In this document: positions 604-33,941 of the stretch, piece by piece | How positions within the stretch are numbered: the stretch's first letter is position 1 | Layout: every line of letters begins with the position of its first letter | DNA from: Candidatus Dadabacteria bacterium | Lineage (GTDB): Bacteria; Desulfobacterota_D; UBA1144; Nemesobacterales; Nemesobacteraceae | Assembly (NCBI GenBank): GCA_026705445.1 | Contig: JAPPAR010000048.1 | Coordinates: forward strand, 1-34,217 | Length of the DNA: 34,217 nt | Direction: 5' to 3' | Notes under the pieces: model-generated | Seen by the model: the letters and a program-made list of their open reading frames with translations, nothing else | Databases searched by the model: none | Told to the model about the DNA's origin: nothing | Made by a program: the position numbers and the translations under genes

Positions 604-3600
604 CTACCTCTCTGGGATTCGTTGCGGCTTTTGCACAGGCCTCACTACACTCAAACCGAAGCCGGGTCTACCGTATGAGCCTACGTAGCTACTGTATAGG
701 TCAAGCCTTAGGTCGCAAGGCAGATGAAGACCGTAGTTGGCACGGGCATCAAGGGTCCAGCGGTCCGGATTCCTCTCACTGCTTCGTAGACCCCCGTCAA
801 GAGGATCCCACAGGCCTGAGCCTGTGGCGTTGGCCGGGTCGCCCCAACGCGGCGAGACCAGAAGCGAGAATCCTTCCTCACCTTCCTCCTTCCCTACTGC
901 AAGGGCCACTGCCGCACCACGCTCTTCGTAACCTTCTGCCGAGTGGTGAACCAGCATTCGCCCCTGGGCGTCGAGACGCACGATGCCTATTATAAACCTT
1001 AACCCACCTGCTAACTCAATACCCTCTCCAGTCTGACCCGCACCGCCGTCACGGCGTGCGTACACCGTTCCAAATGGCGTCAGTTCCAAGCCGCCGAGAG
1101 TCGTGTACATTGACAGGTCTGCACCAATACGCATCTGGTTAACTGCAATGTCATGGCCGTCTATGGTCTCCTCCCCATCTCCCGTGCTAAGACTGGCCCA
1201 AGCGGCATCGCCCACAATGGCGAAGTCAAGCCCTCCAGGCGTTCCAAAACGCCGTTTGAGTTCAACAATGCCGAGCCAGAGACTCGTCTGACTCTTACCC
1301 CTTATTCCATACGTACGCAGGTTTCTGGCATCTCCCCTGCCCGCACCGACCGAGGCCCAGACCGAAGTGGCCCCTCCGTCCCACCGCAGGTACGGATAGA
1401 CTGCAGTCATGTACTGCGTCAGCCTTCCCTCCGAGGTACCCACTTGCCAGTCGCCCACACCCTTACTACGTGAGAGTGCCATACCGGCAAGCCAGCTCGC
1501 TCCAAGCCTTATATCGAGGCCCAGATACCCAGTAGAGAGGTCTCCGTCATAGCCTGAGTTATACCCATACACGGAGGGTCTACCCTCAAAGGTTTGAATA
1601 TCCCCCTGTCCCCAGAGAGACCAGCGTCTTTGTACTGAACACCGCTCGCCGTCATCACCACTCCAAGCCACCAGGAAGTCCGCAATACCTGCACCGGATA
1701 CACCTGCCCGGACAGGTACAGAGCGTAGCGCAGAATCGACTTGATACGCTGTATCCGGGACCATACCAGTCTCAAACACAGTTGATGGTTCGCCAACTCC
1801 TTCACTAAAGCCCAGTGGGGATACCGCAGAACGTGCGTCGGTCTCTATCTGTCTAAGCAGGGTTTTAGCCTCCGTACGCCCAAGCGGCACGGAGAGACCA
1901 TTAATCGCAAGCCGGGATGCCTCGCACGGATCGGCCTCCATCCTGCGGCCCAGCGCTGTGCGTACACTAGCCAGATGGCCCCGGGCAGTGGCTGCCAGCA
2001 AGTTCTCCAGCACCGCACGCTGTGGACGATCGCTTACGCCAACCTTTACACTGTGCGTCGCGCTGAGACCATCGGGATACCACGCAGTGACCGTGACAGC
2101 CACCGAACCGTATATAACCGGAGTCAACACGAGAACCGACCCCGCCACAGAAGCCTGTACAACCCTGGTGTCACTTGACCTTGCACTATATAAGGTAGGC
2201 TTGTCCCCGTCCACATCTATGAAGTATGAAGACACGTCTACCTGCACAGAACCACCTCCCTCGTCCAGAGTCTGGTCGGGAATCTTCCCTACCGCCTCGG
2301 GAGGTTCGTTTACGTTAGTAATTATCACTGTTACATCCGCTCGTGCTTCTGCCCCGGATCCGTCAAGTACGCGCACAGTAAGTTTAAACTGCTTAGGTTC
2401 CGTCTCGTAGTCCTCGCCCGGTCCGATGTACCTGACCACTCCGTCCCTAAGCCCCACCGCAAAAAGTTCCAAGTCACCAGACACTATCCCGTATGTCAGA
2501 GAGTCACCGTCGGGGTCTGTTGCCGACACCGTGCCGAGATCAAACGGACGTTCCCGGCCGTCTAGGTTCTCGGGCAACAGGAAACGGTAGGACGATAACG
2601 TCAACCTGGGTGGCCGATTGGGGGGCGGCGTCCCGTCACGAATCGTGACCAGGAAGGATCGAACTAGGTAGTTGCCGATCCAGAAGTTGACCTTCTCCTG
2701 AACGGCATCGGCCTTAACGCCGGTCACGGTGAATGGAATCTCTTGGTAGTTGGCCTGAGTGACCTGGACGCTGGCCGGGTCGATCGCCACTGCACTGCCC
2801 ACGCTTTCCGAACGAATGGTGTACGCGCCGGGGTATTTGTCCCATCCGAATGTGTGAACGAAAGAGTTTCCTTCGTTTACCGTCTTGGGAGAGATGTCGT
2901 TGTTGAACACGTTGACCGTAAAGCTAATGCCGGGCCAGCCATTGTAGTCCGAGCCCGTTCCGCTGAATGTGCTACTGACTTGCACCTGCACCCGGTCTTC
3001 ACCGAGCACATCGTTGTCGGCCACGCTGAACGACACCGGTTGTGCGACGTTCCAGTTCGTCGTCGTGAACATCAGCAACATCGGGCTCACGGTCACCCGG
3101 CTGATGTCCTGACTGGCAAGCGTTACCGTAGTGGCCGCCGCGGGCTCAGAATTCAGTGACACGTAGTAGCTGTGGGTCGAACCTTCATAGGTGCCAAAGG
3201 CGGAGTCCCCTCGCAGATTGTCCGGGCTTCCAACCCAGTAGACGATGCCCCTCTCGTCGTTGTCCGTTACCGTGACAAGGACTTCCGGGACCGCAACGGT
3301 GGCGTAGCCACCTCCGCTTGCCTGGTGCGTGACCTTCGCATGCTTGAAGTAGCCGGCCATGTCCTCATCGGTCGCCGTCACGGTCACCGTCTGCGCCGAG
3401 TTCCAGTTCATCGTCGTGAACGTCAGGCTCGACTTGTCGACCGTAGCCACGCCGGATTTCCGGGTACATGAGGCACCACTGTGTTCATGGCACTTGAAAG
3501 GGTCGTCACTCGCTGTCACCGAGATCGTCACGGTGTCGGTCGGCTGCGTGTCCAGCACGACGGCGTAGGAGGCTGTCGAGCTTTCATTTATGGTTAATTC

Positions 3601-3750
3601 CCTTGGGGACACGGTCACGCCCGGACTCTGCGCCACGGCCCGGGGCGCGGGCAGGAGGAGAAGCACCGCGAGAAGGGCAAGTCCGATCCGCGTCACGTTC
3701 CCTTCGCACCGAACGGATTCGCGCCATAAACCAGATCCGGGACTTAGCAT
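604..3750 (-). CDS. Calx-beta/cadherin-repeat autotransporter-like surface protein
   Basis: The product is probably exported and anchored in the outer membrane by a C-terminal beta-barrel. A signal peptide is clear from about residue 19 (hydrophobic LALLAVLLLLPAP, then AVAQ). Two Calx-beta-like repeats follow (about 44-165 and 166-285), each with the signature TTxNWNxAQ and ending in an acidic DND/NND. A cadherin-like unit spans about 380-485 (ATDPDGDSLTY, NVNEPP) and a second Ig/cadherin-like unit about 488-572. The last ~360 residues alternate Gly/aromatic strands as in autotransporter barrels. The ATG at 3750 has no Shine-Dalgarno site and abuts a C10 tract. A GTG at 3696 would start exactly at the signal peptide (VTRIGLALL), so either start is possible. 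Family knowledge suggests adhesion or surface interaction; no ligand can be inferred. Confidence 0.8.
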   Translation of the reverse strand: MLSPGSGLWRESVRCEGNVTRIGLALLAVLLLLPAPRAVAQSPGVTVSPRELTINESSTASYAVVLDTQPTDTVTISVTASDDPFKCHEHSGASCTRKSGVATVDKSSLTFTTMNWNSAQTVTVTATDEDMAGYFKHAKVTHQASGGGYATVAVPEVLVTVTDNDERGIVYWVGSPDNLRGDSAFGTYEGSTHSYYVSLNSEPAAATTVTLASQDISRVTVSPMLLMFTTTNWNVAQPVSFSVADNDVLGEDRVQVQVSSTFSGTGSDYNGWPGISFTVNVFNNDISPKTVNEGNSFVHTFGWDKYPGAYTIRSESVGSAVAIDPASVQVTQANYQEIPFTVTGVKADAVQEKVNFWIGNYLVRSFLVTIRDGTPPPNRPPRLTLSSYRFLLPENLDGRERPFDLGTVSATDPDGDSLTYGIVSGDLELFAVGLRDGVVRYIGPGEDYETEPKQFKLTVRVLDGSGAEARADVTVIITNVNEPPEAVGKIPDQTLDEGGGSVQVDVSSYFIDVDGDKPTLYSARSSDTRVVQASVAGSVLVLTPVIYGSVAVTVTAWYPDGLSATHSVKVGVSDRPQRAVLENLLAATARGHLASVRTALGRRMEADPCEASRLAINGLSVPLGRTEAKTLLRQIETDARSAVSPLGFSEGVGEPSTVFETGMVPDTAYQVDSALRSVPVRAGVSGAGIADFLVAWSGDDGERCSVQRRWSLWGQGDIQTFEGRPSVYGYNSGYDGDLSTGYLGLDIRLGASWLAGMALSRSKGVGDWQVGTSEGRLTQYMTAVYPYLRWDGGATSVWASVGAGRGDARNLRTYGIRGKSQTSLWLGIVELKRRFGTPGGLDFAIVGDAAWASLSTGDGEETIDGHDIAVNQMRIGADLSMYTTLGGLELTPFGTVYARRDGGAGQTGEGIELAGGLRFIIGIVRLDAQGRMLVHHSAEGYEERGAAVALAVGKEEGEEGFSLLVSPRWGDPANATGSGLWDPLDGGLRSSERNPDRWTLDARANYGLHLPCDLRLDLYSSYVGSYGRPGFGLSVVRPVQKPQRIPER

Positions 3751-21207: not shown

Positions 21208-21966
21208 ATGTTCCCTGAACTTCTCAGAATAGGCGATTTTCATATTACATCCTTCGGGGCGATGGTCGCCGTCTCTTTTCTTGTCGCTTTCTGGGTTTCC
21301 GGGGTGGAATTTGAAAGAAAAGGAATGTCCAGGCAACTTCATGAACAGGGTTTTCTTGCCTGCCTTGTTGGAGGCATACTCGGGGCCAAGCTCCTTTTCC
21401 TGATCGAGAACGTTCCCCTAAGCGACCTTATCTCCTACCCCATGCACTATCTTCTTCTAAGGGGAGGACTTACCTTCTACGGAGGATTTTTTCTGGCTCT
21501 CTTCGCCTTTTTCGTACTAACAAAAAAGCATAAAGAAAGTTTCTGGAGAGTTCTTGACGCCACCGCCCCGGCTCTCGCAATAGCTTACGCGACTGGGAGG
21601 GTCGGCTGTCTTCTAGTTGGAGACGATTACGGAATCGCCTCCACACTCCCCTGGGCGATGCCGTTTCCAAAGGGTTCCCCCCCGACACTTGAGGCGGTTC
21701 ATCCGACTCAGATCTATGAAACGATCATAATGTCGCTTGTGTTCTTAGTGCTGTGGAAGATAAGGAAGAAGGACAGGCCTGTCGGCTGGCTCGCCAGCAT
21801 ATATCTGGGACTCGCGGGTCTTGAAAGGTTCTTTATCGAATTCATAAGAAGCACCACTGAAAGCCCGATATCCGGCCTTTCGGTAGCGCAGGTAATGGCA
21901 CTTGCACTGATCCTTGTCGGAGCGCTCAAATACATATCTTTACGCAGACACAAGGAAGCGTCTTGA
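21208..21966 (+). CDS. lgt: Prolipoprotein diacylglyceryl transferase
   Basis: A 252-residue inner-membrane enzyme that transfers diacylglyceryl from phosphatidylglycerol to the lipobox cysteine of prolipoproteins, the first step of lipoprotein maturation. Multiple membrane segments are evident. Family motifs are LRGGLTFYGGF, the signature ATGRVGCLLVGDDYG, HPTQIYE, and the late GWLASIYLGLAGLERFFIEF. The start ATG 21208 directly abuts the stop of the 42-aa peptide gene. The next gene downstream is lnt, so the first and last steps of the pathway are encoded together. Lgt substrates include the two lipoproteins encoded at 26312-28799. Confidence 0.95.
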   Translation: MFPELLRIGDFHITSFGAMVAVSFLVAFWVSGVEFERKGMSRQLHEQGFLACLVGGILGAKLLFLIENVPLSDLISYPMHYLLLRGGLTFYGGFFLALFAFFVLTKKHKESFWRVLDATAPALAIAYATGRVGCLLVGDDYGIASTLPWAMPFPKGSPPTLEAVHPTQIYETIIMSLVFLVLWKIRKKDRPVGWLASIYLGLAGLERFFIEFIRSTTESPISGLSVAQVMALALILVGALKYISLRRHKEAS

Positions 21967-31244: not shown

Positions 31245-33941
31245 CTAATTGCTTGCTTTCCTGCTACCGCGTGACAGCAACAGAAGGCCGAACATAAACA
31301 CTAAACCAATAGCAGCAAGATTTGACGCTAACTTGCCCAGAGTTGAATCTCCATGCGGAGACAGATTGCATCCGCCATCTGAGTCCGAAGCCGTAACCGG
31401 CTGCTGAGTGCCTTCATCACTCATATCATCATCAGGGCCCATCATATCATCATTATCATCATCCATGTCCGTAGGGGGACTAGGAGGACCAGAACCACCG
31501 CCGGAACCAGGACCAGAACCACCGCCGGAACCAGGACCAGTAGTAGTAGAGGTAACACAGCCAGGAGAGGGAGCATAGCCAGGAGAGGGAGGCTCATCGC
31601 TCTGATGATGCTTCACGATGAAATCAGCTTTCGAGAAATCTCGCCCGGAGACATTCAGCCCCTTTTCGTGGAACTGACTATCAGGTTGTTCATCAAGGCT
31701 ATCAGGTTTAGGGGGGTCTTTTCTTTGCAAGTTCCAGTTTGCACCTTCGGGTTTCATACTCACATTCCACACCCCGCTGCGGACCGTGACACCCGGTATG
31801 GCTTTTTGGTTTTCGTCGCCACTTCTGCTGCCGTCGTACAACAAAACGCCGTTGACTGCGATGGTCGTCTCGCCATAATCGTTAATGATCCAGTTGTCCC
31901 CAATAACCTCCTCCACGGTGCATCCGTTGAGATTCATGTCCACCCGGAGGTTGGATGGCATTCGCCCACCACCAGTACCACTGGCAAGAATGCCAATTCT
32001 CGAGTCTGTGACTTTGCTGATCCTCCCTCCGCTCCCGATGACCACCCTACCACCACCTGCGAGAAAAACGCCCGTGTCAGTACTCTTTATGGAGCCAGTC
32101 ACATTCACAGTCTGATCGGCGTAGCCGTCTTCATCCTGATCTTTGGGCTCGGGGTCATTAGAATCTCGTGACGCATTATCGGCCACCCGGATTCCCTGAG
32201 AGCCCGGACCGCTCACGTCAATGGTTCCTGCCGTGATCTTAATTTCACCACCATCATTGTGATGGGCATGTATGCCGTGGGCACCATAGCCTTTCGTTGT
32301 GATAGTGCTGCCCTGAGCGTTAATGTCGATATCAATGTTTGTTGTGTCTTCTTGAGGTTCTGGAACTATATAATGACTTTTGTAGACATTCCAAGGGCCG
32401 TGTGAGGCTGGGCTTAACGCTTCATCCTCTTTTACCAAGATGACTTCTGCGCCGACGCCTTCGTGAATGGCACGTATGCCGTAGGCAATACCTCCCTCCG
32501 TTTCGATAGTGCTGCCGCCCTGAGCGCTAATGTTGATCCCGCCCTGACCTTTATGAGCCGCGTAGATGCCGTCTGCTCCCTCACTCTTAGTTGTGATGGT
32601 AGCGCCTTGGCGAATTCCTATGTGGATATCCCCCTCTCCTTGATGCGCGCCCATAATGCCGCTTGAATCAACTTCCTCCGTCGTGATGGTACCACCTGCA
32701 ACATCGATATCGATGTTGCCCATGGAGTCGTGATAGGCGAATACTCCGTTGGAAAATAAATTTCCGGTTTCGATCGAGGTATCTGAAAGATCAATATCAA
32801 TCATCCCGCCCTGTTTCGATGAGTGACGGAAATATATCGCGTAGATGCCGTTGCCGCGATGCCCTCTAGTTTCGATCTTGCTGCCTGAGGCAGAGACTGT
32901 CATATCGCCTTCAGTAAAGTGGTATAGCTTTAAACCTCTCGAACCTTCCCAGGATCTAGCTGGACGACCACCACCCTCCGTCAGAATGTGGAAGTTGCTG
33001 AGGTGAATATCCATGTTTACTGGCGAAGCCAACGGAGCCGGATCGGTAGCCTCTCTCCAGCCCACCTCGGCGAGTATGCCGCTGGAATCAATGCCCGTCG
33101 TTTTAATGTTGGGATCCATAATATCCAAGGAATTCGCCCTAGCCTTGATTCTGACGTCACCGCTACCTCTGTTAACCGCATGTATGGCCTCACCGTCCTC
33201 CGCCGTCGTCGATATGGAACCATCGCCTGAAATGTCGATCAGTATGTCGCCATCATACTCTCCATCCTGAAAACTGCCTTCGTTCTTACCGCCTTGTCTG
33301 CTGTCGATTTCAGCCCAGACGCCTGGTCCCACGCTCACGATGTTGCCTCCTGTCTTATACACGTTTATATCCCCTGATTCACCAGTCTGGTATACGCTGA
33401 TGCCACGAGCTCTGGTAGTAGCAGGGATAGTGAGGGCCCTAGGGTCTTCTGGGTGCTTGGCGGTTAGATCGGCAGCGGACCGGACGGTGATATCACCATG
33501 GTGACCAGAATCACTGTCGTAATCAAAACCACTGTCAACAGAGAATGCTGCATAGTAAGCAAAAGGTGTTTTTGATCCTCCATGCGAATACGGCTTGGTC
33601 CCACGCCGACTGTGGTCGTCTTCCTCCTCTGTTGCTCCCGGTATTCCCGACCCTTGTGGAAGTACATTGGCGTTCCAAGAACGCGTGCCGACGACATTAA
33701 GACCGCTTTCCAGTCGAAACTCGTAGTTGGTCTTCGTGTCTTTTGATATTGGCAACTGATAGAAGATATTGCCCTCCGTTGCCTGGTCGTAATTCTGGGA
33801 ACTGCACACCACAGTACTCTGAGAAGTGGCGGCGCCGCATTCATCCGCAGCCAGTGCATCGCTGCCTAGGACGGCCAATGTGATGAAAATCACTATCCAA
33901 ACTGCCGGGGCAATCAACCAGAAGGGAAATGGAATTCTCAT
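31245..33941 (-). CDS. Large repetitive surface protein with C-terminal Cys/TM/basic sorting signal
   Basis: An 898-residue exported protein. The signal peptide has core WLIAPAVWIVIFITLAVLG and cleavage near ALAAD. Residues ~150-600 are repeats of the type ITTxGxGxxGIxAxHxGxGDIxI, the parallel beta-helix style of autotransporter and adhesin passengers. DQDEDGYAD looks like a calcium-binding loop. A low-complexity linker follows (tandem GPGSGGGS, then an Asp/Met-rich stretch). Instead of a beta-barrel, the last ~40 residues give GGCNLSP (Cys858), a hydrophobic span (AAIGLVFMFGLLLL) and a basic SRGSRK tail. This resembles MYXO-CTERM or JDVT-CTERM signals processed by CAAX-type proteases. The ATG at 33941 has a GAGGAG site. 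No ligand is known. Confidence 0.8.
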   Translation of the reverse strand: MRIPFPFWLIAPAVWIVIFITLAVLGSDALAADECGAATSQSTVVCSSQNYDQATEGNIFYQLPISKDTKTNYEFRLESGLNVVGTRSWNANVLPQGSGIPGATEEEDDHSRRGTKPYSHGGSKTPFAYYAAFSVDSGFDYDSDSGHHGDITVRSAADLTAKHPEDPRALTIPATTRARGISVYQTGESGDINVYKTGGNIVSVGPGVWAEIDSRQGGKNEGSFQDGEYDGDILIDISGDGSISTTAEDGEAIHAVNRGSGDVRIKARANSLDIMDPNIKTTGIDSSGILAEVGWREATDPAPLASPVNMDIHLSNFHILTEGGGRPARSWEGSRGLKLYHFTEGDMTVSASGSKIETRGHRGNGIYAIYFRHSSKQGGMIDIDLSDTSIETGNLFSNGVFAYHDSMGNIDIDVAGGTITTEEVDSSGIMGAHQGEGDIHIGIRQGATITTKSEGADGIYAAHKGQGGINISAQGGSTIETEGGIAYGIRAIHEGVGAEVILVKEDEALSPASHGPWNVYKSHYIVPEPQEDTTNIDIDINAQGSTITTKGYGAHGIHAHHNDGGEIKITAGTIDVSGPGSQGIRVADNASRDSNDPEPKDQDEDGYADQTVNVTGSIKSTDTGVFLAGGGRVVIGSGGRISKVTDSRIGILASGTGGGRMPSNLRVDMNLNGCTVEEVIGDNWIINDYGETTIAVNGVLLYDGSRSGDENQKAIPGVTVRSGVWNVSMKPEGANWNLQRKDPPKPDSLDEQPDSQFHEKGLNVSGRDFSKADFIVKHHQSDEPPSPGYAPSPGCVTSTTTGPGSGGGSGPGSGGGSGPPSPPTDMDDDNDDMMGPDDDMSDEGTQQPVTASDSDGGCNLSPHGDSTLGKLASNLAAIGLVFMFGLLLLSRGSRKASN

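Follow-up and report, generated by a model that had tools for sequence, protein, structure and literature searches.

A putative myxosortase-kind C-terminal sorting tail with a conserved cysteine in Dadabacteria

The closest described relatives of the system considered here are MYXO-CTERM sorting by the CPBP protease MrtX of Myxococcus xanthus and JDVT-CTERM sorting by MrtJ. According to the available part of PMC11980579, cleavage by MrtX needs the conserved cysteine of the tail and occurs in Escherichia coli upon MrtX coexpression. Lipidation of the cysteine is proposed in the same part of that source, where the enzyme is described as not established and Lgt (or a relative) as the leading candidate. 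The word "Dadabacteria" is absent from PMC11980579, and no title on such a signal in Dadabacteria was found in a literature search that had most subscription journals outside its coverage. Here, we analyzed a 34,217-nucleotide stretch of DNA (the window), which is contig C48 (JAPPAR010000048.1) of a 1.78-Mb, 48-contig metagenome-assembled genome of a Candidatus Dadabacteria bacterium (GCA_026705445.1; G000), and a protein encoded there that ends in a cysteine-containing tail. The myxobacterial kind of sorting seems to be present in Dadabacteria in a variant of its own, because the tail is shared among proteins and a likely cutting enzyme accompanies it.

The 898-amino-acid window protein (Table 1) has the C terminus ...DSDGGCNLSPHGDSTLGKLASNLAAIGLVFMFGLLLLSRGSRKASN, followed by a stop codon at 31245-31247. 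Its end opens with DSDGGC858NLSP and closes with SRGSRKASN, and the tripartite arrangement proposed in the initial annotation (GGCNLSP, a hydrophobic span, and SRGSRK) was confirmed in translation and by a helix at residues 867 to 894 of a single-sequence AlphaFold model. Repeated beta strands were also modelled, with confidence that was fair to good at approximately 311 to 495 and 535 to 590 and poor between them; most remaining parts were poor, and the mean predicted local distance difference test (pLDDT) score of the whole chain was only 46. Fold comparison of the model gave no match at E ≤ 0.001, and the top-ranked proteins were beta-helix proteins (polygalacturonase, AlgE4, pertactin, and Fap2), none of them significant. 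The label "beta-helix" for the passenger is therefore based on sequence repeats, the structure model, and homologues. Pfam and NCBIfam scans of the protein gave zero matches, with no PF03797 barrel detected, and placement of the tail or passenger in an existing family of either database was rejected. Membership among type Va autotransporters was likewise rejected, as the protein lacks a C-terminal beta-barrel and the model has a single C-terminal helix.

Similar C termini were found elsewhere in G000. A Gly-Gly-Cys-x-Leu/Phe codon pattern occurred at 53 places versus 38 in a backward control, and all 53 were covered (30 loci, 18 regions with 19 places, and 4 places in the window). A filter that required a cysteine, a hydrophobic stretch, and basic residues at the end left three ORFs (open reading frames) with GGC tails, which encode the window protein and two others, with a Cache and a Spondin_N domain, respectively. 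In G000, a profile built from the three tails had 11 matches at E ≤ 10 (10 at E ≤ 0.034), and a ten-tail profile gave 14 at E ≤ 1, with an intact Cys tail in 12 of the 13 among the matches listed. One candidate read-through tail, at G000:C19:19132-19260 (L159, ~1540-1780), was rejected, as a TGA precedes it and Phe replaces Cys, and it is the lost tail of a Cache-like paralogue. Eight Cache-like proteins of G000 were scanned with Pfam, and Cache scored over the cut-off in L050, L056, and L058, below it in L055, L057, and L059, and not at all in L053 and L054; an SRCR-like piece, recognized by eye, lies just before the L050 gene (L004:2-223 on G000:C1). The Spondin_N protein gave a clear match (143.1 bits), and two further tail proteins of G000, L157 and L158, gave no match at E ≤ 1e-5 in an NCBIfam scan. 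Among ten other proteins scanned, comprising relatives and a paralogue from G000, domains over the cut-off were LRR (L150), fn3 (L149), Calx-beta (L151), Spondin_N (L148), EGF (L122), and Cache (L138). Judged by these matches, and with signal peptides assigned by eye, the tail is common to unrelated secreted passengers of one genome: Cache, Spondin_N, and beta-helix-like.

The tail extended beyond G000. The ten-tail profile gave 6 to 23 matches at E ≤ 1 in each of 13 genomes of the genus; the best tail of G004 had an E of only 0.006 with this profile and 5.0e-10 with a broader one. Fetched loci contained 107 distinct matches with E ≤ 0.02, and the cysteine was present in all except one, a spurious-looking ORF of 50 amino acids. 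The remaining 106 tails had I, V, or L at position +2 without exception and G before Cys in 99 cases, and the family combines a short Cys motif, a transmembrane helix, and a basic C-terminal end, as Cys sorting tails generally do. A 42-row profile detected 135 tail domains in forward ORFs, all with Cys, and 0 in the same ORFs reversed, counts that include training rows and overlapping loci. Of these domains, 125 lay within 30 amino acids of the ORF end and 10 were internal (nine in two-tail ORFs and one overlapping copy). Against curated models at E ≤ 0.05, 12 of 42 tails matched MYXO-CTERM (TIGR03901) and 5 of 42 matched JDVT-CTERM. The curated TIGR03901 cut-off of 20 bits was passed by 1 of 10 tails of G000 scored alone and by 0 of 9 whole proteins; L052 scored 22.3 bits as a tail and 16.7 as a whole protein, and the L059 tail scored 20.2 bits on the JDVT-CTERM model (cut-off, 27).

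The window tail was a training row of profiles A1, A2, and A3; its initial E value of 3.4e-22 came from the three-tail profile that contained it. Scored alone in a leave-one-out test, the window tail reached 15.9 bits (no null2 correction), a score that was equaled neither among 5000 full shuffles (maximum, 14.7) nor among 5000 in which the motif part alone was shuffled (maximum, 14.1). It carries Asn at +1 after Cys, a residue absent from that position in the remaining 105 tails counted. We conclude that, by profile score, the window tail is a weak, divergent member of the tail family.

A candidate processing enzyme was found in G000. Only one protein matched PF02517 at E ≤ 0.001, a 227-amino-acid protein on contig C10 (G000:C10; 70.2 bits against a cut-off of 22.4, and hence of the CPBP family), encoded beside a biotin-ligase-like gene named by eye. 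It was 98% identical to a protein of Candidatus Dadabacteria bacterium RHO1_bin_23 and 67 to 90% identical to proteins of seven other Candidatus Dadabacteria. The PEE, RG, H, and H...N motifs were invariant in 13 aligned orthologues (A4), and we take the invariant Glu and His residues to be catalytic, as in CPBP glutamic intramembrane proteases. On NCBIfam, the highest scores, all below cut-off, were to myxosortase models (MrtP, 77.8 bits; Mrt_core, 72.4; MrtS, 63.1; MrtC, 58.2), followed by MrtX (45.7), MrtJ (40.8; cut-off, 75), ABC_perm_CPBP (40.2), MrtZ (38.7), and others below 20. Mrt_core (NF040914) scores were 55 to 72 bits for the orthologues versus 19 to 29 for three other CPBP proteins of the order that were scanned and 21 to 32 for five matches, and its curated cut-off of 100 bits was passed in 0 of 40 genomes. 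Searched against PDB sequences, the protease profile gave 0 matches at E ≤ 1. The initial annotation had suggested looking for a co-occurring CAAX/Abi-family or rhombosortase-like protease: the former was found as the one CPBP protein, and the latter was not, as TIGR03902 had no match at E ≤ 0.001 in G000 and none over the cut-off in 43 genomes. Neither of the outcomes that would have spoken against a sorting signal, a tail unique to one protein or a genome lacking any candidate protease, was observed. We conclude that the standing of the protease on the Mrt models is a ranking, not membership.

Tail, protease, and the type II secretion system (T2SS) were compared by Fisher test across 43 genomes of the order, with thresholds of E ≤ 0.05 for tails, E ≤ 1e-20 for the protease, and E ≤ 1e-70 for the secretin GspD. 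Tails were present in 39, the protease in 32, and GspD in 36. Counted as tail plus protease/tail only/protease only/neither, the genomes divided 31/8/1/3 (p 0.045), and these and the following p values overstate the association because of the relatedness among the genomes and because both clean absences fall in a single genus. The 20 genomes of ≤100 contigs divided 18/0/0/2 (p 0.005), with the same counts for GspD, and genomes at least 95% complete divided 16/1/0/2 (p 0.018). Tail versus GspD gave 35/4/1/3 (p 0.011). Neither tail nor protease was found in G016, G018, and G022, and in genus g7 (G018 and G022), the T2SS secretin was missing too; a weaker secretin match there (~1e-50) is probably a pilus secretin. 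In G000, GspD was split across two contig ends (332.3 plus 116.4 bits; cut-off for the whole, 351.35) and GspE scored 677.5 bits (cut-off, 630.25), consistent with an available T2SS. The available part of PMC8115339 presents a T2SS as a distinctive trait of hydrothermal Dadabacteria and of those associated with organic carbon (sponge ones among the latter) and gives a genome of ~1.22 Mb for pelagic Dadabacteria. By that description, G018 (a single contig of 1.2 Mb) would match the pelagic type and G022 (1.6 Mb) would do so less plainly. We conclude that tail and protease co-occur in part.

Taken together, the tail is probably a C-terminal sorting signal of the myxosortase/MYXO-CTERM kind, in a Dadabacterial variant that is processed by the CPBP protease and associated with T2SS export. 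The proposal of a new sorting class in the initial annotation went further than the evidence, and the system resembles a divergent branch of an already described kind because the best curated matches of the protease were myxosortases and some tails were near the MYXO-CTERM model. In the proposed pathway, the window protein would be exported by Sec, its C-terminal helix would retain it in the inner membrane, and C858 would be modified, probably by a lipid. The protease G000:C10, as the sole CPBP protease of the genome, would cut next to C858, and T2SS would then carry the cut protein to the outer surface. We infer cleavage, lipidation, route, and surface location, that is, every step after synthesis, by analogy with MrtX.

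The passenger of the window protein has relatives with another kind of anchor. Homologues were found in 3 of 40 genomes, G000 included, and no orthologue of the window gene was among them. The best homologue outside G000 was a 1000-amino-acid protein of G012:C6 (L244) with a Pfam barrel (PF03797, 72.5 bits), 39% identical over residues 377 to 803 and 31% identical over 334 to 773 in a second comparison, such that homology ends near the linker (residue 773 or 803). A paralogue in G000 (L243:823-3609 on G000:C19) was broken into pieces, had a barrel at its end (95.1 bits), and adjoined the Spondin_N tail protein. The view of the initial annotation that an autotransporter-like passenger here lacks its barrel thus held, as L244 bears one and none was detected in the window protein. 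A beta-repeat protein of G004, weakly related (E 4.5e-5 and 2e-5, in repetitive sequence), had a clear Cys tail (32.2 bits in the leave-one-out test). In the window protein, the tail occupies the place that an autotransporter barrel takes in homologues. Separately, window positions 604-3750 (-) encode a 1048-amino-acid protein that has Big_9/cadherin-like matches and ends in an autotransporter barrel (PF03797, 37.5 bits), such that a barrel-anchored surface protein and the Cys-tail protein are encoded on the same window.

Some ORFs contained two tails. Nine single ORFs of 835 to 909 amino acids in six genomes of the genus (three in G012, two in G008, and one each in G002, G009, G010, and G011) encode two consecutive proteins, both of which carry a tail; none was seen in G000. 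The order was signal peptide, Cache-like passenger, Cys tail, Lys/Arg run, a second signal-peptide-like segment (ending in AxA before His in all nine ORFs), and then another Cache-like part with another tail. Pfam detected Cache only in the second half of the one ORF scanned (L138), and the second half of L141 has no obvious separate start, because the 32 codons inspected contain no ATG, GTG, or TTG. The available part of PMC11980579 mentions rare ORFs, such as MXAN_5598, in which a MYXO-CTERM motif is internal. The two-tail ORFs are apparent natural polyproteins, as read from their translations. Tentatively, a lineage-specific myxosortase-like system might display adhesion-type domains, with polyproteins that signal peptidase and the CPBP protease would split into two surface proteins, discarding a two-helix hairpin, and with autotransporter-type passengers that may use the tail for a barrel; the whole set is absent, like the T2SS secretin, from one genus.

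Comparable arrangements were found outside the phylum. At 3 of 9 non-Dadabacterial CPBP loci, the protease gene was convergent with a gene for a subtilase plus fn3 protein ending in GGGGGGC[AS]IG, a transmembrane segment, and RR, ~85 to 225 bp apart, and a profile trained without these tails scored them at E 2.1e-6, 5.3e-5, and 1.4e-3. The three are taken as one conserved locus because a chorismate-synthase-like gene, recognized by eye, flanks each. At two of the six other loci, an Lgt-like gene lies directly before, and on the same strand as, the protease (L102:3713-5315, titled Deltaproteobacteria; L105:3899-5318, titled Nitrospira sp.), and both proteases pass Mrt_core (108.3 and 116.7 bits; cut-off, 100) as bona fide myxosortases. 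The two Lgt-like proteins were 51% identical to each other, with best matches to NF000778 of 121.5 and 128.8 bits (cut-off, 334), and are candidate Cys acyltransferases for such systems. This arrangement fits the Lgt proposal in the available part of PMC11980579, with nothing direct for Dadabacteria. The window also encodes an Lgt-like protein, 22% identical to that of L102, and an Lnt-like protein; the Lgt-like gene lies ~9 kb from the tail gene, and a link to the tail would be speculative.

Several results weigh against the sorting reading. The window tail was the weakest of six tested, the other five scoring 29 to 49 bits in leave-one-out tests; the window protein was absent at E ≤ 10 when the leave-one-out profile was run over the 445 ORFs of the window; a 17-row profile from outside the genus ranked it (E 0.14) below an unrelated ORF (E 0.051); and no NCBIfam model, including TIGR03901, matched its tail. 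The protease passed no Mrt cut-off, and the Mrt models are unspecific below cut-off: Mrt_core had matches in 8 of 14 control genomes, and the paralogue L246, itself best on ABC_perm_CPBP, scored 41.4 bits on MrtJ versus 40.8 for the orthologue. Structure comparison with a model of the 98%-identical relative (pLDDT 72) gave no match at E ≤ 0.001. Co-occurrence divided 26/3/1/2 (p 0.057) among genomes at least 90% complete. Eight genomes of 110 to 450 contigs had tails only (G010, G032, G036, G037, G039, G040, G041, and G042), G032 being 96% complete with 15 tail matches, and G030 had the protease and no tail match. One of the three genomes with neither, G016, is 74% complete, and the clean absences in G018 and G022 are possibly one loss because they share a genus. 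Finally, the remaining 6 of 9 CPBP loci outside the phylum had no comparable tail within the DNA covered.

Other explanations were weighed against the same evidence. The tail could be a plain, uncut membrane anchor through which the protein would stay on the periplasmic side of the inner membrane, as a helix and a basic cytoplasmic end would suffice for anchoring, the fit of the window tail to the family profile is weak, and tails occur with no protease detected in 8 of 43 genomes. We regard a bare anchor as unlikely, because it would not need a conserved GC[AST][ILV] outside the membrane on unrelated passengers, several of which have adhesion-type domains, and because the only Cys-less copy seen in G000 (13 of 14 matches listed) sits behind a stop codon. 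A chance look-alike, that is, an autotransporter that lost its barrel and ends in an accidental hydrophobic segment, would agree with the barrel on L244, the broken paralogue in G000, and the lack of an orthologue to confirm the tail. The shuffles of the motif part, the ORF open across 898 amino acids, and the clear tail on the weakly related G004 protein argue against such an accident, and we consider it very improbable.

Processing by another enzyme, such as a rhombosortase, an exosortase, or a different CPBP protein, is an alternative to which we give scant weight. The GG before Cys recalls GlyGly-CTERM, and G032, with its many tails, has no orthologous protease and encodes a CPBP protein (L250:680-1366 on G032:C207) nearest to the archaeomyxosortase MrtA (101.8 bits; cut-off, 200), a possible replacement judging by that match. 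The single PF02517 protease of G000 speaks against another enzyme there, as does the result for rhombosortase in the 43 genomes, a search in which exosortase and sortase were not included. We conclude that a myxosortase-kind signal, cut by the CPBP protease, is the probable identity of the tail.

Table 1. Coordinates of the window protein, its parts, and related features
Feature	Location	Strand	Basis or remark
898-amino-acid putative surface protein: signal peptide, beta-helix-like passenger, Pro/Gly/Ser/Asp-rich linker, Cys sorting tail	31245..33941	-	ORF reading and structure model
Signal peptide (residues 1-32; expected cleavage after ALAA)	33846..33941	-	read by eye; model helix 10-28
Better-modelled passenger part, residues ~310-588 (poor at 496-534)	32178..33014	-	structure model; homologous to G012:C6 (L244)
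Putative C-terminal sorting tail, residues 853-898: DGGC motif, transmembrane helix, basic end	31248..31385	-	translation, profiles, leave-one-out test
Codon of conserved cysteine C858	31368..31370	-	translation
Predicted C-terminal membrane helix, residues 867-894	31260..31343	-	structure model
Lgt-like protein (prolipoprotein diacylglyceryl transferase)	21208..21966	+	best NF000778, 151.4 bits (cut-off 334); TIGR00544, 110.4 (cut-off 118.9)
Convergent CPBP protease and subtilase/fn3 genes	L099:5001-8013, L100:4605-7663, L101:1642-4388		two Thermodesulfovibrionales, one Nitrospira
Two-tail ORFs L138-L146	G012:C17, G002:C21, G008:C5, G009:C39, G010:C14, G011:C19, G012:C16, G012:C92, G008:C33

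Rfam at gathering thresholds indicated a single tRNA on the window.

If the myxosortase-kind reading is true, this kind of surface anchoring extends to an uncultured phylum that is nearly invisible to curated models, and the tails provide a list of likely surface proteins of Dadabacteria. Natural tests would come from related passengers that differ in their anchor and from ORFs that encode two proteins and contain an internal tail, and the Lgt-like genes before the L102 and L105 myxosortases make the question of the Cys-modifying enzyme more testable.

Compared with known systems, the Dadabacterial tail resembles MYXO-CTERM/MrtX, as given in the available part of PMC11980579, in its tripartite form, the invariant Cys before the helix, and the Arg-rich end, and also in many substrates per genome, a CPBP protease, T2SS, and internal tails (MXAN_5598). 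It differs in that the typical Dadabacterial motif is DGGCAIA whereas a generic GCGC is quoted there, and the Dadabacterial protease scores below every Mrt cut-off. JDVT-CTERM/MrtJ likewise combines a Cys tail with a CPBP protease, and the two-gene pairing of protease and substrate in the same part of PMC11980579 resembles the three convergent loci outside the phylum; Dadabacteria, in contrast, have many substrates per genome, and their protease scores below the MrtJ cut-off. Type Va autotransporters have a similar beta-repeat passenger, but the window protein has no barrel and its homology with L244 stops near the linker.

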